A stretch of 64,000 nt of DNA from contig NZ_SCHN01000005.1 in assembly GCF_004120195.1 (NCBI RefSeq), positions 248,001 to 312,000 on the forward strand, read 5' to 3'. Shown piece after piece: positions 7,554 through 41,939 of the stretch; the first letter of the stretch is position 1; every line of letters begins with the position of its first letter. The notes beneath the pieces were generated by a model, which saw nothing but the letters and a program-made list of their open reading frames with translations, searched no databases and was not told the origin of the DNA. The stretch comes from Enterovibrio baiacu (GTDB lineage: Bacteria; Pseudomonadota; Gammaproteobacteria; Enterobacterales; Vibrionaceae). Position numbers and translations under genes: made by a program.

Positions 7554-8081
7554 CTAATCCAGTAATGACGCTTGAAGCACAAACGGCTCTTTACGCTGAT
7601 ATTGCTTAATGTCTTTGGCCAAATTTTGCAGCACGCGGATCACGATCAACACCCATGCAAGCGGTGTGGCAAGATAGAACCACCACTCCATCACATCATC
7701 GGTTCCCCCGACTATCGCGAAGTTGTCATAAGCGATATACGTTTGGTTGGTCGCGTGATAAATCACGATGCCCGCGAAGGCGATCCAAAGCACGGCATCT
7801 AACACCAAGCAATAGAATTGAAGACGATACGAGAGTCGCGCACGGATCTCAGTTAACGCCAAATGTGTGCGCTTTTTGATGTTGTACGAAGCGCCAAACC
7901 ACGTCACCCAGAGGAAAAGTAGGACGGGGACGGTCGTGCTCCATGGCACTTGTTGGTTGAACAAAAACCGCCGAACAACCTCTACGAAAATAATGCCAGC
8001 CATACTTGAATAGGTGATCAAGATGATGACCTTTTCCGTGTTTTCATCTAACCATTTGAGCAAGGTTTGTAGCGGTTTCAT
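7554..8081 (-). CDS. TRAP transporter small permease (DctQ type)
   Basis: A 175-residue protein with four predicted membrane spans and the DctQ signature region FVEVVRRFLFNQQVPWSTT near residue 30, followed by FLWVTWFGASYNIKKRTH. It partners the large permease that starts 9 bp downstream. C-terminal residues after about 150 are cytosolic and charged (KDIKQYQRKEPF). Substrate is set by the binding protein, not by this subunit. Confidence 0.93.
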   Translation of the reverse strand: MKPLQTLLKWLDENTEKVIILITYSSMAGIIFVEVVRRFLFNQQVPWSTTVPVLLFLWVTWFGASYNIKKRTHLALTEIRARLSYRLQFYCLVLDAVLWIAFAGIVIYHATNQTYIAYDNFAIVGGTDDVMEWWFYLATPLAWVLIVIRVLQNLAKDIKQYQRKEPFVLQASLLD

Positions 8082-32583: not shown

Positions 32584-32802
32584 TCAGTACTTTTCTTGTT
32601 CCATCTCTTGCGCCATTTTTTTGAAATCAATGTGCGGTGTCGGCGCTTCCATCACTGGCGCTTTCTCAATGGTGCGAGTGATGACATGTAAGATCTGATG
32701 TTGACGCTGATCTTGGGTTAATTCCATGAGGCTGAACAGCAATTGCAGCAAAATCAGCACCGTCGCGAGACAAAAGAACACCAATGACAAATGTTTTCTC
32801 AT
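32584..32802 (-). CDS. Small single-span membrane protein (72 aa), last gene of dehalogenase operon
   Basis: N-terminal membrane helix (LSLVFFCLATVLILLQLLFSLM) followed by a charged tail (APTPHIDFKKMAQEMEQEKY). The start overlaps the preceding gene by 4 bp, so translation is coupled to the RdhC-like protein. It could be a small accessory subunit or anchor. No family recognised. Confidence 0.75.
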   Translation of the reverse strand: MRKHLSLVFFCLATVLILLQLLFSLMELTQDQRQHQILHVITRTIEKAPVMEAPTPHIDFKKMAQEMEQEKY

Positions 32803-34055
32803 TCCTCAGTCTCCTTTCTTCCAGTCTGACGAGTTCGGCGCGTATCCCCTGCTCGTTCACTCACACTTGAAGCCCGCTTTTTCTTCGCAGATTGGGTTCT
32901 CACTTGTTTGAACCAGTTTTTATTGAATACCACGAAATCGGTCATCGCATTGATTGGACAAAGGCTTTGACACCAAGGACGACGAACCACTAAAGAGGTG
33001 AGTAAAATCAGTATCGTCAGTACAAACAAATACATGCCGCCGATCATACCGAAAGCGATACCAAACGGCTCATACACAAACCCAGCTGGATTGCGAAAAT
33101 ATGCCCCAAGACAAAGCGTCGCTAGCAAGATCACGCGCGGTAACCAGACAAAGAATTGATGTCGAACAGGTGACGATTTGGCATTTCCCACCTTTGCCAA
33201 GCATTGCTGAACGGCCCCGAAAGGACACAAGCTCTGGCAATACACATTGCGGTTGTAATAGACAATGTAACCAAGGCTCAAGGCTAACAAAATGAACGGC
33301 GTATAGTTCGCGACACCTGTGAGCCATGAGCCAAAAATGAGCCCGCCCATGGTCGATGCGGAATACAACGACGCGGAGTAAAAACCAAAAACCAAGGTCG
33401 ATGCGAACAAGATCGCGCCGTTCATTTTCGCTTTATGCGGCGAACGCGTTTTGTTCACCCAAACCGCCACACCAAAGAACAAAACGGCCGCCAGATCCAA
33501 CCATTTCAGGTATTCCCAAAGAGCAGGTGTATCAGATAATTGGTAATTAAATTCAATCGCTCGCACCGGATCTGCCGCCTGGTTTAACGCATGGGTATAG
33601 GCAGCAGAGGTAAGCGTCGCACCTGAAACAGCATCTATGGACAAGGTGCGTACAATGTTCTGTTCGAGCAGCCCGTCAGGCAGCTTTTCATCCACCACTT
33701 TGTCGAAGTAAGACGCGGTTTCTTTGGACGACAATAAGGCGATCGTTTCAACTTGGCCATCAGACAGGAACACACCACCCACCGTCAACTCACCACCGTA
33801 ACCAACACCCGCACCGATACCAATCCATTTCAACGGTTCAGCATCACGTTGTCCGTCAGGCACAACTTTGAACAAACGCGGTGAAACCTCAACAGCCTGT
33901 TCACCGCTTGCGAGCACCTGTTTAAAAAACTGAGATTGCGAATTGTCAGTGCGCAATCCGCCTAAAGACCATGCGGCAATCAACAGGATCACAGAGACAA
34001 TGCTGAACACCTTCTCAACGGTTTTATTTCGATTCGTGGATTTCTGTTTTGTCAT
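32799..34055 (-). CDS. rdhC: RdhC/NosR-like FMN-binding membrane protein with Cys motifs
   Basis: A 418-residue membrane protein. A periplasmic FMN-binding domain has SGATLTS near residues 144-150, the site where FMN is covalently bound to Thr. Several helices follow. Two cytosolic CxxxCP-type motifs (YCQSLCPFGAV and WCQSLCPINAM) replace the full ferredoxin clusters of NosR. RdhC proteins accompany RdhA and are proposed to pass electrons or assist maturation. The C-terminus is very basic. It is downstream of RdhA in the same operon. Confidence 0.87.
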   Translation of the reverse strand: MTKQKSTNRNKTVEKVFSIVSVILLIAAWSLGGLRTDNSQSQFFKQVLASGEQAVEVSPRLFKVVPDGQRDAEPLKWIGIGAGVGYGGELTVGGVFLSDGQVETIALLSSKETASYFDKVVDEKLPDGLLEQNIVRTLSIDAVSGATLTSAAYTHALNQAADPVRAIEFNYQLSDTPALWEYLKWLDLAAVLFFGVAVWVNKTRSPHKAKMNGAILFASTLVFGFYSASLYSASTMGGLIFGSWLTGVANYTPFILLALSLGYIVYYNRNVYCQSLCPFGAVQQCLAKVGNAKSSPVRHQFFVWLPRVILLATLCLGAYFRNPAGFVYEPFGIAFGMIGGMYLFVLTILILLTSLVVRRPWCQSLCPINAMTDFVVFNKNWFKQVRTQSAKKKRASSVSERAGDTRRTRQTGRKETEE

Positions 34056-34149
34056 CGTTATTGCAAACCGAATGCGTGCTCCCGCTATTCATGGCGAAAG
34101 CACGCCTAAAGGCTCGCTCCTTTTATTCAATAGACATGGACAATGAAAA

Positions 34150-34461
34150 CTACTGCTTAGCTTTTGGCTTCAACACAATTAGCACCCTAAGGATCACTGC
34201 GCCCGCAATGATCAATGCTGTGCCAACAAAACCAAGGAAGTACCAACCCGCTAGGCCTTCGTTTTCACCAAGTAAGGTGAATGCACCCGCGATAGTCAGT
34301 ACGAGAGATGCCCACCAGCCGCCAACGATTGACCATTTCCACCCATTCATGCCAAGCGCATATTGCTTCGCCCACTGATTCGCACCCGCAAACACCAACA
34401 CTTGCAATGCACCAAACGCCATCCAAAACAGTGGATCAAGTACCGTAGATTGAGGAAACAT
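34150..34461 (-). CDS. Small RdhB-like membrane anchor
   Basis: A 103-residue protein with three hydrophobic helices (PLFWMAFGALQVLVFAGANQWA; SIVGGWWASLVLTIAGAF; WYFLGFVGTALIIAGAVILRVLIVL). Its start overlaps the RdhA stop by 1 bp, the same place that rdhB occupies in dehalogenase operons, where it anchors RdhA to the outer face of the inner membrane. Match is by position and shape; rdhB is very divergent, so assignment is moderate. Confidence 0.8.
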   Translation of the reverse strand: MFPQSTVLDPLFWMAFGALQVLVFAGANQWAKQYALGMNGWKWSIVGGWWASLVLTIAGAFTLLGENEGLAGWYFLGFVGTALIIAGAVILRVLIVLKPKAKQ

Positions 34462-35975
34462 TAAAATCCCTCCCAGTTGCCGTCATATTCCCAAGTTTTC
34501 TCTACCTTGAGGTAGTTCTCACTGCGCATCCATTCTGGCGGTTGGTGATAGCCAGCAAAGCGGCCGCCATTCCAATCACCGTGATACGCTTCTGCTTCTG
34601 GGTAGTAGAAGAAGTTGTGCTGCATCGCGAGCAAGGTTTTACGGGTCAGTCCCGTTGGGTCGCGAGGGTCTGCTTCTTTCACCAGCGCATGAATCCAGTT
34701 GTTCTTGCGGGTATAAGGGCACACGGCGATACAGACACGGCAACCCATCGCGGTTTCTGTTGGGCCTTGTCGCCACATAGTCCAGCAGCTGTCTTGGTTG
34801 AATTCAAACTTGCGGTAACCACGCACAATCGCATCGGGTTTATCCGCCTTGCTGATCGACCCACTTGGGCAAGAATCCGCACAGATTTTGCACTCTTCAC
34901 AGAAGTGCTTCACCTTCGTATCGATAGGTTTGTCAGCTTCGAGATCCAATTCAGTGATCACGGCTGCCAGACGAATGTTTGGCCCCAGTTCCGGCGTTAA
35001 CAAGATGCCGTTACGCGCGGCTTCACCCATGCCCGCTTGAATCGCCAAGGGCGGAACAACCACTTCATAATCTGAACCCGGCCACTGTGGACGCGCTGCG
35101 TAGCCCAGTTCGCCAAGGAACGCGGCCATCAAGCCCGATGCATTCTTCGCTCGGAAATAGCCGTCGTATGACGTGGAGTAACCTATCGCTGCATACATAG
35201 GATCCCAGTTCATTGGGGTGCCGAAAATGATCACGTTCTTCCAGTGCTTCGGAATGCTCTCGTCCCAGTCAGGCATGCCACGCATGGTGTTTTTAAACAC
35301 GAAATTCGGGTCAAGCTTGGTGATACCCACCACGCTCATGCCGAACTTAAACGCCATCTTCTTGATCAGATCAGACGCATGTTTCGGGGATTTGAATTCT
35401 TGCTTTTGACGCTTCACCCATTGGAAGTCCACCTCATCCGGGTGACCTTGTGGTTTTGGTGGGAAATCACTGTATACACCGCGCATGTAGGCGGCGGAAT
35501 ATGCCCAACCTAATGCAAAACGGGAACGGTGCTTTTCGAAGTTCGCCGCATGTTCTGCTTTTTCTTCGAACGATGCGTACATGTCAGCCCAACGCTCAGG
35601 GTAGCGAGAATAGTATTCACGCACGCGCTCGTTAGGAATTTCACGCCAATCTTTGGTAGGGATCCAGCCCGCCTTCATATCGGCGCTTAACACGCGCGTC
35701 CGGTGGAACAGAAAGTCACTCCACTCAGGGCGAATAAGTTCCCCCGCCACTTCCATGGTCGGTGCAACGTCTACGCGGAAGGGTTCGCGGTTAAAGAACA
35801 TGTCTTTACCCGCTTCCGTTCGGCCATAGCCCACATTGGCATCCGGATCGCGACCCAAAACAAAACCTGCGCCTGCTGCTGCGCCAACCGTTACAGTTGC
35901 TGCAGCCACGCCGCCAAGTTTGAGGAAGTCACGGCGCGAATTGCTTTCAACGCGTTGATGAGATTGCGTTTTCAC
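34461..35975 (-). CDS. rdhA: Reductive dehalogenase catalytic subunit (RdhA) with Tat signal
   Basis: About 504 residues from a GTG at 35975 with GGAG 8 bp upstream; a longer frame to 36137 is rejected. SRRDFLKLGGVAAA is a twin-arginine signal, so this is the exported respiratory type. Two Fe-S motifs typify the family: CxxCxxCxxxCP at Cys 359/362/365/369 and C-x14-CxxCxxxCP at 397/412/415/419. The large N-terminal part should bind corrinoid. Such enzymes use cobalamin and two Fe-S clusters to remove chlorine or bromine from organohalides. Cys spacing is as in known RdhA; the substrate is unknown. Confidence 0.93.
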   Translation of the reverse strand: MKTQSHQRVESNSRRDFLKLGGVAAATVTVGAAAGAGFVLGRDPDANVGYGRTEAGKDMFFNREPFRVDVAPTMEVAGELIRPEWSDFLFHRTRVLSADMKAGWIPTKDWREIPNERVREYYSRYPERWADMYASFEEKAEHAANFEKHRSRFALGWAYSAAYMRGVYSDFPPKPQGHPDEVDFQWVKRQKQEFKSPKHASDLIKKMAFKFGMSVVGITKLDPNFVFKNTMRGMPDWDESIPKHWKNVIIFGTPMNWDPMYAAIGYSTSYDGYFRAKNASGLMAAFLGELGYAARPQWPGSDYEVVVPPLAIQAGMGEAARNGILLTPELGPNIRLAAVITELDLEADKPIDTKVKHFCEECKICADSCPSGSISKADKPDAIVRGYRKFEFNQDSCWTMWRQGPTETAMGCRVCIAVCPYTRKNNWIHALVKEADPRDPTGLTRKTLLAMQHNFFYYPEAEAYHGDWNGGRFAGYHQPPEWMRSENYLKVEKTWEYDGNWEGF

Positions 35976-35989
35976 AGTAGCTCCAGTAT

Positions 35990-37111
35990 TTACGATAAGT
36001 CGATGAGATCGAGGCTCAATTTTTTGTTGATGGTATTGAGTTGTTCTCGATAGGTGATTTTGTAGCGCGCAGCCAACTTGTTGAGCTGCACCATCACGGC
36101 TTGCGCATCTGCCCACTGTTCGTTGTGGTAGTAGCAAAGGAATAAGTGTTCAAGCGACCATTCATCATGCGGCTCAAACACCAAAAGCTGTTTCAAATCG
36201 GCTTCTAAATCGCCAAAGTGACCAAGTTCTGCTTTGACATGCGCACGAATGTTCAGCACATCAAAGCTGTTCGGATTGTGGGAAAGGTAATGATCCAACG
36301 CCTCAAGCGCCTCTTCACAGCGACCGTTTTGATGCGCCGAAATGCCTGCAAGTCGCACCAACTCCATCGACGTAACGTTGTGCTCAAACGCACGATTAAT
36401 CCACGCTTCCGCGTTAGCTTTATCGCCAAGCGCGAGGTAACTGCTGATGGCAGTGATGTAGGTTGAAACAAGCGAGGTGCACTTAGAGAATGCACGCTCT
36501 GCAAATTCAGCCGCCTGCGCAAAATCACCGTCTTGGTAGTACACACCAGCAAGGTTTTGATAGCCGCCCACGAATTCAGGCCCTACCTCAATGCTGTATT
36601 TGAAGCATTCGATGGCCAGCTCTGTGTGGCCTTGGTAGAGGAAGTTAAAACCGAGGTGACAATGGGTCATCGGGTTTGCATCGTTTAATGCAATGGCCTC
36701 TTCGAATGTGGCTTTCGCTAAGTCATAGTCGCCCAATTGCTGATACACCAAACCACATTTGGATTTGAAATCGTCTTCTGCTAGCAATGGCTTGTGTTCA
36801 TTGATGGTCGCCATCGCCAATTGGCAAAGCTGCGCGGCCATCAAGGTTTCGAATAAAAAAGACAGTTGAGCCGACGTCAGTTTTACCGTCGGAATGATGT
36901 CACTGAACACCAACGTAAAGGCTTCATTTTCTAACCAGTCCTTTTGCTTGGTGCTTGGCTGTTTCCCCTTTTCTAAAAACTGGGCGCTGATGAACATCAG
37001 CTTGTCATTCAATTGTTCAAGAAAAAGGCGTTCTGCTGGAAGCGTATCGACTTGGGTATTGATATAGCGATATAGCTCGAGCCACTTAGTACTGATCATT
37101 GGTATATCCAC
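35990..37111 (-). CDS. Tetratricopeptide-repeat protein heading the dehalogenase operon
   Basis: A 373-residue, all-helical protein with several TPR units (for example LGFNFLYQGHTELAIECFKYSIEVGPE and LAGVYYQDGDFAQAAEFAERAF). No signal peptide, so cytosolic. It starts 463 bp from the divergent peptide cluster and its stop is 14 bp before the RdhA start, so it is the first gene. TPR proteins bind partner proteins; it may be a chaperone for the Tat-exported RdhA or a regulator. Not in standard rdh operons. Confidence 0.87.
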   Translation of the reverse strand: MDIPMISTKWLELYRYINTQVDTLPAERLFLEQLNDKLMFISAQFLEKGKQPSTKQKDWLENEAFTLVFSDIIPTVKLTSAQLSFLFETLMAAQLCQLAMATINEHKPLLAEDDFKSKCGLVYQQLGDYDLAKATFEEAIALNDANPMTHCHLGFNFLYQGHTELAIECFKYSIEVGPEFVGGYQNLAGVYYQDGDFAQAAEFAERAFSKCTSLVSTYITAISSYLALGDKANAEAWINRAFEHNVTSMELVRLAGISAHQNGRCEEALEALDHYLSHNPNSFDVLNIRAHVKAELGHFGDLEADLKQLLVFEPHDEWSLEHLFLCYYHNEQWADAQAVMVQLNKLAARYKITYREQLNTINKKLSLDLIDLS

Positions 37112-37574
37112 GCATGAGGGTCAGCGTGAATGTCCATTATTAACAAAGTGGTCAAAAGGTAGAAAAACCCCTAAAAAAGGTAAAAACTCGCCCTTTGAAC
37201 GGAAAGATGATTTTGATCAACGGAATTGAGAACAGGAAGCGCGTTAGCGAGCTAGACGCAAATGGAGGAAATGTTAGCTAGTTTGTTAATAATAAAAGGA
37301 ATGTTATGCGCTTTACGCATATACAGCACGTCACCCCCTAAATCGACACTTCTTCTACAGGCCACGTATTACAAGGGCTTCAGCGTCTAATAAATTTTCT
37401 ATGCCATAATTTTTTGCCTGATTTTGCAGACAAAAAGGTCTGAAGTAAGATCACAATATTCGTCTGTCTAAATTGTTATTAACAACAAACTCAGCAAAGT
37501 TCTTTACCACTTGGTCAAGTAACGCGCATCTGCGCATTCCTCAAAGCTCTATATCCATCAATAAGGAAAGAACG
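37112..37574. promoter_or_regulatory. Divergent promoter region (dehalogenase operon / peptide cluster)
   Basis: AT-rich, 463 bp, no gene. It must hold promoters in both directions. Seen by eye: a small palindrome TTGTT-ATT-AACAA at 37473-37485 and a hairpin CAGAC/GTCTG at about 37428-37442 in the peptide leader. I see no convincing FNR site. Confidence 0.5.
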
Positions 37575-37703
37575 ATGAAGATAAATACTCAGGTCAATGT
37601 GAAGCAACCAAGTGCGTTCACCATTCGCAACCACTCTTTCAACAAAGCCGCACCGAGTGCTTTCACCATTAGAAACCACTCTTTCAGCAAAGAGAAAAAG
37701 TAA
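37575..37703 (+). CDS. 42-residue repeat peptide, candidate precursor of a modified peptide
   Basis: AAGGAAAG lies 5 bp before the ATG. The sequence starts MKINTQVNVKQ and then holds two copies of PSAFTIRNHSF (residues 12-22 and 27-37) joined by NKAA, ending SKEKK. The repeat length is 45 nt, and several codons differ between copies (CCA/CCG, GCG/GCT, CGC/AGA), so the amino acids are conserved by selection, not by a very recent duplication. The short leader, repeated core and downstream terminator followed by two oxygenases and exporters are what a ribosomally made, modified peptide looks like. A new family to me. Confidence 0.78.
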   Translation: MKINTQVNVKQPSAFTIRNHSFNKAAPSAFTIRNHSFSKEKK

Positions 37704-37730
37704 GTCTCTACTACTTAATTGACTGACTCA

Positions 37731-37755
37731 GGCAGCAGGGCCCGCTGCCTTTTTT
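37731..37755 (+). terminator. Partial terminator between peptide and enzyme genes
   Basis: GGCAGC, loop AGGGCCC, GCTGCC, then TTTTTT. Placed 28 bp after the peptide stop and about 45 bp before the diiron enzyme start. It would give many copies of the short peptide message and some readthrough to the enzymes, as in many peptide-modification operons. Confidence 0.85.
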
Positions 37756-37798
37756 CGTGTTGATCCTGCCGACTGATTGACAAGAAAGGGAAACGATT

Positions 37799-38569
37799 AT
37801 GGCTCGTTCATCTAACCTTGCATCTAATGTTCTCGGTGAACTCAAGCATGTTCAGGCGAGACAATACCCGCTCTACAACGCGATCCTAAAGCACGCATTT
37901 GATACCCATCAGCCTGTTTTCGCCAAATCAATTTTCGCAAAGCGTTATGCGGAACTTTCAGACGATGGCGAATGGTTCGCGAATCAGCTTGTCGCCAATT
38001 CTTGCCTTGAAGGGTATGGCGCACAACAAATCTGGAACTTTTCCAACCAACTCGATAATGACGAATACGCCCGCCGCGTAAGACAACATGCGCTGGATGA
38101 ATCGCGGCATTCCACCATGTTTATTTCAATGCTTAATTTGGTGTACCCCGGTCTCGATTTGGATCAGGACACTTTATCCAAAATTGAAGACATGCAGCCA
38201 AAATTCACACCGACGCAGCACCCTGACATCGCCAAAGTCCCTGAGGAGGAACGACTCTTTGAATTGGCGTCCATCAATGAACTGGTGCAAGTGCATATAA
38301 CAGAAATTCGGGCATTGGTACTGCAATATATGGTACGAGATGCATTACTGAAACACGCCCCCGAAGAAAGCCACGCTAGACTGAAGAAATTCTCTGATTC
38401 CCTCATCCGAGATGAAGCCAAACACATCAATTATTCCGCTGAGATTTTTGAAGATTACGCGTCGCGTGGAAACAATAAGGATTTCTTCTACCAGATGTTC
38501 GAAGACCGCCTTTGTGATTTCAATGAATTAACTAAAATCGAACTAGAAAGAGAAGACATTGAACTTTAA
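37799..38569 (+). CDS. Ferritin-like diiron enzyme (putative peptide-modifying oxygenase)
   Basis: A 256-residue helical protein. Six candidate iron ligands follow the classical E...ExxH...E...ExxH pattern: Glu71 (EGYG), Glu101 and His104 (DESRH), Glu169 (ITEIRA), Glu206 and His209 (RDEAKH). This is the ferritin/heme-oxygenase-like diiron fold, which activates oxygen. I do not recognise the exact family. The gene follows the peptide terminator and overlaps the JmjC gene by 11 bp. Because that partner carries rubredoxin, I infer that rubredoxin reduces this diiron centre. Confidence 0.83.
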
Positions 38570-39911
38570 GTGCACCCATTCTAATGTTCTTGGTATCCCG
38601 TTGGTGGAGGTGTTTTATCAGCAATATTTCGATAAACACCCTTACGTGTTCCGCACCGCCAATCCTTTGCTAATAAGCACCTTAATTAACGGGTTCTCGC
38701 TGGATCATCTTATTCAAACCTATCTGCACGAGTGGGGAGATATCCGCATTGCCAAAAAAGACAATGCCGACCCCACTCTGTCGCAACAACCGCCGTCTGA
38801 TGCCATGCTGCTTGATGCTTTCAAAGGCGGCTACACCATCGTGCTGAACGATTTACAGCAAAAGCTACCTGCGGTTGCCAATATTTGCCGATTGCTCAGC
38901 CAACAATTTTTGTGCCCCACCAACTGCAATGCCTATTGGACGCCTGCACAGGGTGAAGCATTAGATCTGCACTACGACGATCAAGATGTGTACATCGTCC
39001 AACTTGAAGGCAGCAAACATTGGATGGTGGAGTCACGCAGCGCCTATCGCCCCTATGAAGGGGAAACCTATCGTCCGAGTACGTTGCTAACAGAATGTGA
39101 CCACTTAACCGATTGCATCTTAGAGCCGGGAAACGTGCTTTATATTCCTCGTGGGACAGGCCACAAAGCCGTCGCATTGGACGACAATTCACTTCACTTT
39201 ACGTTCTCCACCCTCAATCTGCGTAACCGTGACTTGTTCGTTACCTTTTCTGAAACACTCCACCCCTACACCGAACAGTTGCGACAAGCCGTCAATTGCC
39301 ACGACACCGAGTTTAGCGAGCATATCTCTAAGGTAATCGCCAACTCGCTAGAAAACATCGCCCAAGCGTTTCGTGATGATCCTAGCCTTGCAGAATCCCT
39401 GTTTGAACAACATGTCATCCCTTTCATCCAAGAGCAGCCGCCTGCGCCCATTAGCCTTGAACAGTCACTGAGAAACTCGCCCGATGAGGTGTCTTACACC
39501 ACGCGCCTTGAAGTTGGCAGAAATCAGTTTTTGATGCTGGACACCGAAAACCTGCGCGTTTTCTTCGCCAGTGGCAGCATAGACATCGACCCCGAGCATC
39601 AATGGGTGTTGGCATTACTGAATCGAATGGATTCTTTCTCGCTGGCAGAGCTAGAAGAAGAGGTAGAAGCGGACGGATACATTTTCGATGTAGAAGCCAT
39701 TCACGCATTGATGGACCATCAACTTGTCATCATCAAGAAGGAAAAAGACATGATTCATGAATGTTCAGTATGTGGTTATCAATACGATGATTCAGATCAT
39801 GCCCTGCCTTTCACCGATTTACCTGACGATTGGGTATGCCCAGAATGTATGGTCGATAAAGGTCATTTCGCGATTGCCGAGGACAAAATGACACATTTAA
39901 AGCAAGGATAA
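38559..39911 (+). CDS. JmjC/cupin 2-oxoglutarate oxygenase fused to C-terminal rubredoxin
   Basis: 450 residues, TTG start, 11-bp overlap with the diiron gene. Residues 110-215 form a JmjC/cupin-4 fold like ribosomal oxygenases: His138-x-Asp140 (LHYDDQ), His202 (GTGHKA) and a Lys/Arg set for 2-oxoglutarate. A helical part and an acidic region follow. Residues 398-450 are a full rubredoxin (Cys402, 405, 427, 430; [10 protein letters not shown]...WVCPECMV). An internal ATG at residue 398 has AAGGAAA upstream, so a separate rubredoxin could also be made. Likely role: hydroxylate residues of the neighbouring peptide. Confidence 0.87.
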
Positions 39912-39919
39912 ACACACAC

Positions 39920-40600
39920 ATGGATGGGTCTAACAGTTTACTTTTCGCCATGGTCGTCGGCTTAATGGTGGTTTCCCCTGGTCCAAACGGCTTGCTGATC
40001 ATCAAGAATGTGCCAAGCTTTGGGCGCATTTCTGGCTATTACAATGTCGCGGGCATCGCCACCGCTTTTTACGTGCATGGCACACTTACCGTCTTTGGTT
40101 TGTCCCTGCTTATTATGCAATCGCCCCTCTTGTACGGCTGGATCAAAATTGCAGGTGGAAGTTATTTGATTTTTCTTGGCGTGAAATGCCTGAAGAAACT
40201 TTTCGAAAAACAAACTGCGAGCGCAGAAAATAACGAAACGGATTCCATTCAACGGCCTGAACACACACCCATTTCTCACCCTTCTTTTTCGCTCAAACAG
40301 AAAGCAACCTGGTATATAGAAGGCCTTGTCACCAATGCCTTTAACCCAAAAGTTTCCCTGTTTTACATCGCTGCGTTTCCGCAATTTATTGATGCGGGCA
40401 ACGTATCATTTGTTGCGGCGTATTCGCTGGTGACCATTCATGCATTGATCGCCATTTGCTGGTTCTCTTTCCTGACGGTGATGGTCTCTGTGTCTTTAGA
40501 AAAATTCAGTCAGAACCGCCGACTCATGAACGGGATTAATGCCATTTCAGGCACCTTGCTAGGCGGCTTGGGGATCAATGTTTTATTGTCATCGCGCTGA
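39920..40600 (+). CDS. LysE/RhtB-family exporter
   Basis: A 226-residue protein with six membrane helices, the LysE superfamily. The N-terminal signature is MVVGLMVVSPGPNGLLIIKNV, with AKVTNAFNPKVSLFYIAAFP-like residues (NAFNPKVSLFYI) in the second half. It starts 8 bp after the JmjC gene. The family exports amino acids and small derivatives. In this operon it would move a modified small product or amino acid, an inference. Confidence 0.88.
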   Translation: MDGSNSLLFAMVVGLMVVSPGPNGLLIIKNVPSFGRISGYYNVAGIATAFYVHGTLTVFGLSLLIMQSPLLYGWIKIAGGSYLIFLGVKCLKKLFEKQTASAENNETDSIQRPEHTPISHPSFSLKQKATWYIEGLVTNAFNPKVSLFYIAAFPQFIDAGNVSFVAAYSLVTIHALIAICWFSFLTVMVSVSLEKFSQNRRLMNGINAISGTLLGGLGINVLLSSR

Positions 40601-40628
40601 GATGGCAAACGCCCTCTCCTAAGCCGAC

Positions 40629-41876
40629 ATGAAGAAAAACGCTTCAGGTTTTCTACATCACTTTCAACCCTATCTGGCGCTTGATCCTGCCATTTGGATG
40701 ATCGCAGTAGCACGATTCATCATTGCTGGCGGCACCTTTGTGCTGCCCGTCTATGCACTGATTTTGACACAGAAACTCTCCCTCTCCCCGGCCGATGCGG
40801 GAATGACGGTTTTCATCGTGTCCATCGGAGGCATGCTGGGCAGCGTGCTAGGGGGATATCTCGCCGATACCTTCAACCGCCTAACCTTGATGGCGATAAG
40901 CGAAGCCTTTTCTGCCGCCAGTGTCATCGCAGCTGGGCTGTTCGCATACGACACTCTCTCCATCGTCTTTATCGCGCTCTCCAGCGTGGCGCTCGGCGTG
41001 ATGCGACCTGCCATGCGTGCTGCATTATTATCATTGTGCTCGACAAACCGCGAATCTAAACGCTACGCCCTGTCGCTGTCTTATCTCGCGTTTAACGTGG
41101 GGCACGCCATTGGGCCTTTAATCGCTGGATTTCTTTTGCTCGACTATTACCAATGGCTCTATTGGGGTGATGCAGCCACTACCCTCATTGCCGCCTTTCT
41201 GCTCGCCTCGCTCATCAAGAAAACCACGGGGAAAAAACCCAAACCAGACAAAGCGTCATCCCAAGAATCGCGTGAGAATGGCGCGACAGAAAACACGCTC
41301 AAGCCGGATAAAATACAAATCGCCTTCTTCTTGGCCGTCAATGTCTGTGTCAGTTTTTGCTATGCCCAAATCACCTTTACTTTGCCCTTACAAATGGCTG
41401 AAAGCTTTGCTGATGATGGCGCACGGTATTACGGACTGATTTTGATGATCAACGCACTGGCGGTACTTGGTTTCACCACGATATTGACCTCGCTCACCGC
41501 CAAAACGCACCCCATCAACAACCTCATGATCGCCATATCCGGATACGGTTTGGGCTATATGATGATTGGGCTTATGCCGACGTTATTAATGATGGGGTTC
41601 GCAATAATGATCATCACAGCCAGTGAGATCCTCGAAGTCACCAATGGTGACGCTTACCTTTCCGAGTTGGTGCCAGAGACTCACCTCGGGCGGTATGTGT
41701 CTCTCTCTGTTATTGCGAACAACGCAGGGATTGCGCTGTGTCCATTGCTGATGGGGTTTGCGATTGAAATCTTCGGATTATCATGGGCATGGTATTTGGT
41801 GGGCCTCGTCACTTTGTTCACGCTGTTTTGTCTTTGGGTCATGTTCAAACGTGACAAAAAAATATCCTCACAGTGA
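40629..41876 (+). CDS. MFS-family exporter
   Basis: A 415-residue transporter with 12 predicted helices. The loop 2-3 motif is GSVLGGYLADTFNRLTL near residue 78, and the second half is preceded by a charged loop (KKPKPDKASSQESREN). It is 28 bp after the LysE gene and is followed by a terminator, so it closes the operon. Drug/metabolite efflux type; probably exports or gives immunity to the product of the upstream enzymes. Confidence 0.9.
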   Translation: MKKNASGFLHHFQPYLALDPAIWMIAVARFIIAGGTFVLPVYALILTQKLSLSPADAGMTVFIVSIGGMLGSVLGGYLADTFNRLTLMAISEAFSAASVIAAGLFAYDTLSIVFIALSSVALGVMRPAMRAALLSLCSTNRESKRYALSLSYLAFNVGHAIGPLIAGFLLLDYYQWLYWGDAATTLIAAFLLASLIKKTTGKKPKPDKASSQESRENGATENTLKPDKIQIAFFLAVNVCVSFCYAQITFTLPLQMAESFADDGARYYGLILMINALAVLGFTTILTSLTAKTHPINNLMIAISGYGLGYMMIGLMPTLLMMGFAIMIITASEILEVTNGDAYLSELVPETHLGRYVSLSVIANNAGIALCPLLMGFAIEIFGLSWAWYLVGLVTLFTLFCLWVMFKRDKKISSQ

Positions 41877-41917: not shown

Positions 41918-41939
41918 ATTGCCCAATAAGGCAATTTTT
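41918..41939 (+). terminator. Terminator closing the peptide-modification operon
   Basis: ATTGCC, loop CAATAA, GGCAAT then TTTT. 42 bp after the MFS stop. Confidence 0.8.

Follow-up and report, generated by a model that had tools for sequence, protein, structure and literature searches.

A candidate RiPP cluster in Enterovibrio baiacu combining a repeated-core peptide, a ferritin-like diiron protein and an NO66-like JmjC protein

We analysed a 64,000-nucleotide stretch of Enterovibrio baiacu DNA (contig NZ_SCHN01000005.1, positions 248,001 to 312,000; hereafter the window) and found on its forward strand a gene cluster that we read as encoding a ribosomally synthesized and post-translationally modified peptide (RiPP). 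A gene for a 42-residue peptide with two identical repeats is followed by genes for a predicted ferritin-like diiron oxygenase and a JmjC protein resembling the ribosomal oxygenases NO66 and MINA53. Judging from sequence, it is probable that the diiron enzyme oxidises a Phe/Asn core shared by related peptides and that the JmjC protein beta-hydroxylates the His following the invariant Asn. As in RiPP systems, a short precursor gene with a conserved core lies beside genes for modifying enzymes, an arrangement that recurs in 15 of 17 loci. A first-pass annotation of this DNA, which had proposed that both oxygenases act on the peptide, named a lack of peptide homologues beside these enzymes in other genomes as grounds for abandoning the idea; because such homologues were found at those 15 loci, the RiPP reading gains much.

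The peptide gene (37575..37703, on the plus strand like every feature of the cluster) is preceded by a ribosome-binding-site-like sequence, AAGGAAAG, read at 37563..37570. Its product consists of a leader-like MKINTQVNVKQ part and two copies of PSAFTIRNHSF (37608..37640 and 37653..37685), the repeats that the first-pass annotation had described. The same locus is present in E. norvegicus DSM 15893, where the diiron protein is 98% identical; because the peptide codons of the two species differ by five synonymous and no non-synonymous changes, the peptide behaves as a gene. Peptide homologues were found at loci L012, L013, L015 and L006. The pattern F.IRN[HY] matched eight times in 402,276 six-frame residues from 16 loci, always in the open reading frame (ORF) immediately 5' of the diiron gene, and in the window's 127,996 six-frame residues it matched the two repeats only. 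Neither the window peptide nor any of the six relatives scanned (L006, L013 and L018–L021) had an over-cutoff match in Pfam or NCBIfam, and on these grounds a known RiPP precursor family was ruled out. The sub-cutoff NCBIfam rows were a lanthipeptide leader (the Dolichospermum peptide, 0.0048), a hypothetical family (L020, 0.022) and DivIVA (the window peptide, 0.098).

Relatives came from a scan of 84,980 species genomes with the diiron alignment (12 loci), from PLSDB (four plasmids) and from a genome draw (the divergent locus L040). Readable upstream DNA was available for 17 loci: the window, L006–L009, L011–L013, L015–L022 and L040. The Xenorhabdus locus L014 ends upstream and falls outside this set; L005/L010 and L039, which also carry the motif, were left uncounted as probably belonging to the same genomes as L011 and L007. 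A small ORF with F-x-[I/A]-x-N-x-x-[F/L] stood directly 5' of the diiron gene in 15 of the 17, with one to four copies of the core per locus. Six of these loci encode a JmjC protein and have F-x-I-R-N-[H/Y] cores: FTIRNHSF twice in the window and L011, FTIRNHAF in L012 and L015, FMIRNHSF, FTIRNYSF and FTIRNYQF in L013 (Noviherbaspirillum), and FAIRNHTL, preceded by Gly-Gly, on the cyanobacterial Dolichospermum plasmid L006. The nine others have F-x-A-x-N-x-x-F cores and no JmjC gene: FVAMNSPF (L007–L009), FVALNSPF (L021), FIAFNSPF (L020), FVAVNAPF (L019), FVALNAPF (L022), FIACNAPF, FVACNAPF, FTACNAAF and FTACNAPF (L018), and FLACNMAF and FMACNSPF (L040). Core positions 1, 3 and 5 are not independent evidence because the search pattern fixed them. 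Position 8, which the pattern left free, was F in 16 of 17 copies from 11 peptides and L in one, and the cores of L040, found after the motif was set, fit it. Genome draws recovered the system in 2/197, 1/369, 1/399, 2/246, 1/61 and 3/394 genomes, each count including the centre genome; it is rare in the draws made.

Between the peptide and diiron genes, the terminator scan called an intrinsic-terminator-like hairpin of seven pairs followed by a T-run (37730..37750), where the first-pass annotation had placed one; it is identical in E. norvegicus. Taken as a whole, the region folds no better than its shuffles (z −0.81). A terminator-like hairpin in this position would suit an attenuator, in which a regulatory leader peptide would be translated from the small ORF, this translation would control the operon through its coupling to the hairpin, and the substrate of the enzymes would be a free metabolite or a protein; the presence of a LysE-type exporter also fits, since this family usually transports amino acids. 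We regard this explanation as very unlikely. The amino-acid motif is kept while synonymous sites change freely, 15 of the 17 loci have it, each with between one and four copies, and the peptides of L008, L019, L020 and L021 are about 70 residues or longer with similar N-terminal parts. Hairpins between precursor and enzyme genes are, moreover, common in RiPP operons.

The diiron gene (37799..38569) encodes a 256-residue protein that, on the basis of conservation, a structural model and structural matches, we propose to be the core-oxidising enzyme. Six residues, E71, E101, H104, E169, E206 and H209, do not vary across the 11 rows of the alignment (L022 was left out of the alignments because its diiron frame is split), in line with the full ligand set claimed for it earlier, and they sit in model helices 57–82, 88–115, 155–186 and 189–222 (mean pLDDT 86.4). 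They follow the E, ExxH, E, ExxH order of ferritin-like diiron oxygenases, and we take them to be a ferritin-like ligand set. Structural matches of the model favoured O2-activating diiron enzymes, namely MiaE and aldehyde-deformylating oxygenase, the ferritin-like diiron oxygenases used for comparison, and the haem-oxygenase-like diiron oxygenases (HDOs) AetD, UndA and HrmI; none was close. The E/ExxH/E/ExxH set found here is of the ferritin-like kind. According to the accessible part of one paper, HDOs differ in structure from the ferritin-like diiron oxygenases (PMC13108848). For this protein, Pfam gave only sub-cutoff AurF and rubrerythrin rows and NCBIfam none, and an assignment to the multinuclear non-haem iron-dependent oxidative enzymes (MNIOs; DUF692) was rejected. 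The Phe and Asn shared by the cores are the enzyme's most likely targets.

The partners of the peptide/diiron pair differ between two groups. In a tree of 14 diiron proteins (excluding the near-copies L009 and L017, the split-frame L022, and L040), one branch with support 100/99 parts seven JmjC-linked proteins from seven others. In the DNA fetched for each locus, tblastn found a JmjC relative in L005, L006 and L010–L015 and none in L007–L009, L016–L022 or L039–L041. The pairing of R-N-H cores with the JmjC protein is maintained across diiron proteins that are only 35% identical. In the other group the partner is variously a nucleotidyltransferase-like protein (sub-cutoff Pfam rows in L020 and L021, none for L008, and the rest by ORF resemblance), a methyltransferase (L018) or an IucA/IucC-type synthetase (L019, together with FhuF, and L022); four ORFs scanned around L040/L041 included one ProQ-like protein and one core protein of an extracellular contractile injection system (eCIS), and no modifying enzyme. 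Because the JmjC protein and these other partners vary, peptide plus diiron protein is the constant unit, and the JmjC protein is confined to one of the two branches. That the peptide is a substrate of the oxygenases is strongly supported by their co-occurrence across genera and phyla; the earlier proposal that it serves both enzymes is supported in this respect and has to be narrowed to one branch as regards the JmjC protein.

Several neighbourhoods in this set deserve mention in their own right. The IucA/IucC-type synthetases, members of a siderophore-enzyme family, lie 3' of the diiron gene at 7716–9431 of L019 (Chromobacterium sphagni) and 2466–3632 of L022 (an actinobacterial metagenome-assembled genome, MAG), loci with FVAVNAPF- and FVALNAPF-core peptides, respectively. 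On the Rhizobium leguminosarum plasmids L008 and L009 the peptide/diiron pair is beside phosphonate genes, encoding phosphoenolpyruvate (PEP) mutase and phosphonopyruvate decarboxylase, together with asnB and a cytidylyltransferase gene, and in L016 (Shewanella) a B12-radical S-adenosylmethionine (SAM) gene lies 5' of the diiron gene.

Two exporter genes follow the JmjC gene in the window, one of LysE/RhtB type for amino acids (39920..40600, PF01810) and one of the major facilitator superfamily (MFS; 40629..41876, PF07690). The first-pass annotation had described both, with a terminator after them; the genes are borne out by Pfam, and the terminator scan called nothing 3' of the MFS gene, where a possible weak terminator can be read by eye (ATTGCC-CAATAA-GGCAAT followed by TTTT, 41918..41939). 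Neither exporter is a constant part of the system, nor is the rubredoxin domain fused to the JmjC protein. A CxxCG...CPxC rubredoxin pattern occurs only in the window and L011, both Enterovibrio, among 14 loci scanned. Five of the seven JmjC loci have LysE, detected by Pfam in the window, L012, L014 and L015 and by tblastn in L011. A related MFS gene accompanies three of the seven (the window, L011 and L014); the MFS gene of L013 is of the sugar-transporter type, farther away and on the opposite strand. Among 18 genomes of the genus, the gene flanking the cluster on the right turned up only in the two that also have the cluster, and no empty site came to light to mark the cluster's boundary.

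The five LysE genes could also mean that the peptide serves as a scaffold, with LysE exporting a small molecule (one modified residue or a short fragment) excised from it, much as 3-thiaglutamate is built on a peptide. The IucA/IucC-type synthetases of the sister group (L019 and L022) point the same way, as known members act on small carboxylates. This remains an unlikely explanation in our view: tblastn found no LysE relative in the DNA fetched around the clusters of L006 (Dolichospermum) and L013 (Noviherbaspirillum), and the cluster has no recognised peptidase.

The JmjC gene (38559..39911) starts within the final 11 bases of the diiron gene and encodes a 450-residue protein, predicted to be a JmjC_2 2-oxoglutarate (2OG)/Fe oxygenase of NO66/MINA53-like type with a winged-helix-like part and a rubredoxin domain at its C terminus. 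Pfam matches to JmjC_2 (3.5e-26) and to rubredoxin (1.5e-07; PF00301, residues 400–437, 39756..39869) agree with the overlapping JmjC–rubredoxin gene noted before. By profile and structure its nearest relatives are NO66/MINA53 (PDB 4ccn, 4bxf and 4y3o), followed by YxbC and YcfD, and the profile match to NO66/MINA53 spans nearly its full length. H, D, H and K are kept at NO66 columns 340, 342, 405 and 355, as expected of JmjC_2 enzymes; presumably HxD...H binds the metal and Lys binds 2OG. According to the accessible text of one study, NO66 places a hydroxyl group on the beta-carbon of His216, which belongs to an NHXH motif, with Tyr328 and Ser421 holding that His (PMC4556315). The equivalents of this pair are Y126 and S217 in the window, with the same residues in L012, L013 and L015; in L014, whose JmjC gene is frameshifted, the Tyr is kept and the sequence ends before the Ser position. 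At these two positions the YcfD-like protein encoded in the same Enterovibrio genome carries Cys and Gly. The likeness to NO66/MINA53 thus extends to the JmjC_2 domain, the HxD...H and Lys residues, the His-pocket Tyr and Ser, and an Asn-His pair in the substrate; those enzymes act on ribosomal proteins, whereas here the substrate is likely a 42-residue peptide encoded by the adjoining gene.

Towards the C terminus (39531..39743), the low-confidence model shows three strands followed by three helices, an order compatible with a winged helix and possibly with a leader-binding domain. The window segment has no Pfam match, and L012 gave a weak RIOX1_C_WH row (0.086). Many RiPP classes, though not every one, use a RiPP recognition element or an equivalent domain to bind the leader. 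Ribosomal oxygenases carry a C-terminal winged helix whose function is called unclear (PMC6182338), and another paper reports PF08007 proteins with a fused RiPP recognition element (PMC12710340), each according to the portion of the paper available. A leader-binding role for this part of the model would be a lead, not a result.

Related JmjC proteins also turned up in other settings. One accompanies a radical SAM/SPASM protein and a small ORF in a RiPP-looking cluster of Rhizobium etli (L024, 1242–5167), and another lies near a LanM lanthipeptide synthetase in a RiPP-looking cluster on a Pseudanabaena plasmid (L023, 1–5152). A mobilizable 7.9-kb E. coli plasmid (L025, 615–1508) encodes a distant relative of the window's JmjC protein, of cupin/JmjC type, and several E. 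coli plasmids of about 7.9 kb carry it.

A number of observations weigh against the proposed reading. No peptide was found beside the diiron gene in the near-identical Shewanella loci L016 and L017. Because near-copies are included (L008/L009, L016/L017, window/L011 and L007/L021), the 17 loci are not independent, and because the JmjC protein and the R-N-H cores coincide on one branch of the diiron tree, their link amounts to one split. Foldseek returned no match at E < 0.001 for the diiron model, so its reaction is not readable from a close relative. Neither a peptidase nor a dedicated peptide exporter was recognised in the cluster, and the JmjC model is poor overall (pLDDT 55.7). The Dolichospermum protein (L006) has the pocket Tyr and a Gly at the Ser421 position. 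Arg297 and Asn376, which bind Asn215 in NO66, are Val and Leu in the window, and because they are not kept we class the JmjC protein as NO66-like in its proposed action rather than as orthologous to NO66. The cores read N-H-S-F, N-H-A-F or N-H-T-L and so have no counterpart of the second His of NHXH, a residue (His218) whose change abolished binding in NO66, as stated in the text seen of that study (PMC4556315). Finally, Tyr replaces His in two of the three Noviherbaspirillum cores, while Arg is present in all eight JmjC-type copies.

Because Arg is constant and the His is sometimes Tyr, the JmjC protein of a RiPP pathway might instead hydroxylate Arg, as the JmjC_2 enzyme YcfD, a more distant relative, does in ribosomal protein L16. 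That the cores lack the second His of NHXH fits this as well; the closer sequence and structural likeness to NO66/MINA53 than to YcfD and the retained Tyr and Ser speak for His. We treat Arg as a serious rival, if a somewhat unlikely one. Of the four residues suggested by the first-pass annotation (Arg, Asn, His or Phe), the pocket and core conservation thus appear to narrow the JmjC target to His, or else Arg.

On the reading we favour, in which both enzymes modify the core, the 42-residue precursor would consist of a short leader-like N terminus and two PSAFTIRNHSF cores. The ferritin-like diiron enzyme, as the constant maturase, would oxidise the shared F-x-[I/A]-x-N-x-x-F part, with the invariant Asn or a Phe as its likeliest target; in Enterovibrio the fused rubredoxin would supply electrons to the diiron centre. 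The JmjC protein would act next, by beta-hydroxylating the His directly C-terminal to the invariant Asn, in the manner of NO66 at its own Asn-His motif; a general peptidase would cut off the leader, and LysE, MFS or both would export the product. What the analysis shows is the order of the genes, their conservation and co-occurrence, the ligand sets and the NO66-like residues of the pocket; modification of the peptide, the atoms involved and export are inferred. More tentatively, these loci may make up a new class of RiPP, marked by a ferritin-like diiron oxygenase that acts on peptides with F-x-[I/A]-x-N-x-x-F cores and spread over Pseudomonadota, a cyanobacterial plasmid and an actinobacterial MAG. 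The second enzyme would differ from branch to branch (NO66-like JmjC, IucA/IucC-type synthetase, methyltransferase or nucleotidyltransferase-like). The product of the Enterovibrio branch might then bind metal through neighbouring oxidised Asn and beta-hydroxy-His residues, a ribosomal metallophore made by a relative of the eukaryotic ribosomal histidyl hydroxylases. If the RiPP reading is true, the RiPP-modifying enzymes would come to include ferritin-like diiron oxygenases, a core of this form 5' of a diiron gene would provide a ready search rule, and bacterial NO66-like enzymes would gain a non-ribosomal peptide substrate, with a bearing on the origin of ribosomal histidyl hydroxylases and their winged-helix domain. 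With two enzymes and a 42-residue peptide, the system is small and directly testable in E. coli.

In agreement with the first-pass annotation, the accessible parts of open-licence papers that we searched did not describe this combination of peptide and enzymes. The nearest described systems found there are the biphenomycin-type (pbs) clusters, in which an iron enzyme likewise oxidises core residues and a side chain of the core is hydroxylated by a JmjC protein (PMC12707348, PMC12257519), namely BipG, an ornithine (Orn) gamma-hydroxylase (PMC12707348). As far as the available text goes, these differ in having an F-R-F core, an MNIO (DUF692) rather than a ferritin-like diiron enzyme as first oxidase, and B12-radical SAM and Arg-to-Orn steps, and the F-x-[I/A]-x-N-x-x-F core was not seen in the portions of their descriptions available (PMC12707348, PMC12257519).

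Two other assignments were considered and rejected. Phage or viral cargo was discarded as no diiron homologue was found in phage records and none was confirmed in IMG/VR, where the sole motif match (L032) reads FTISNHSF and was taken as chance. PHROGs had no match for the diiron protein or the peptide; the JmjC protein matched three of its families of unknown function. A defence system was set aside as PADLOC gave no match for three proteins of the cluster.

Elsewhere in the window, the minus strand at 32799–36137 encodes a reductive dehalogenase (TIGR02486, 162.7 bits, just over the cut-off of 160.35), along with a short ORF and a protein that has both FMN-bind and 4Fe-4S domains. A respiratory-type dehalogenase operon in the Vibrionaceae is possible.

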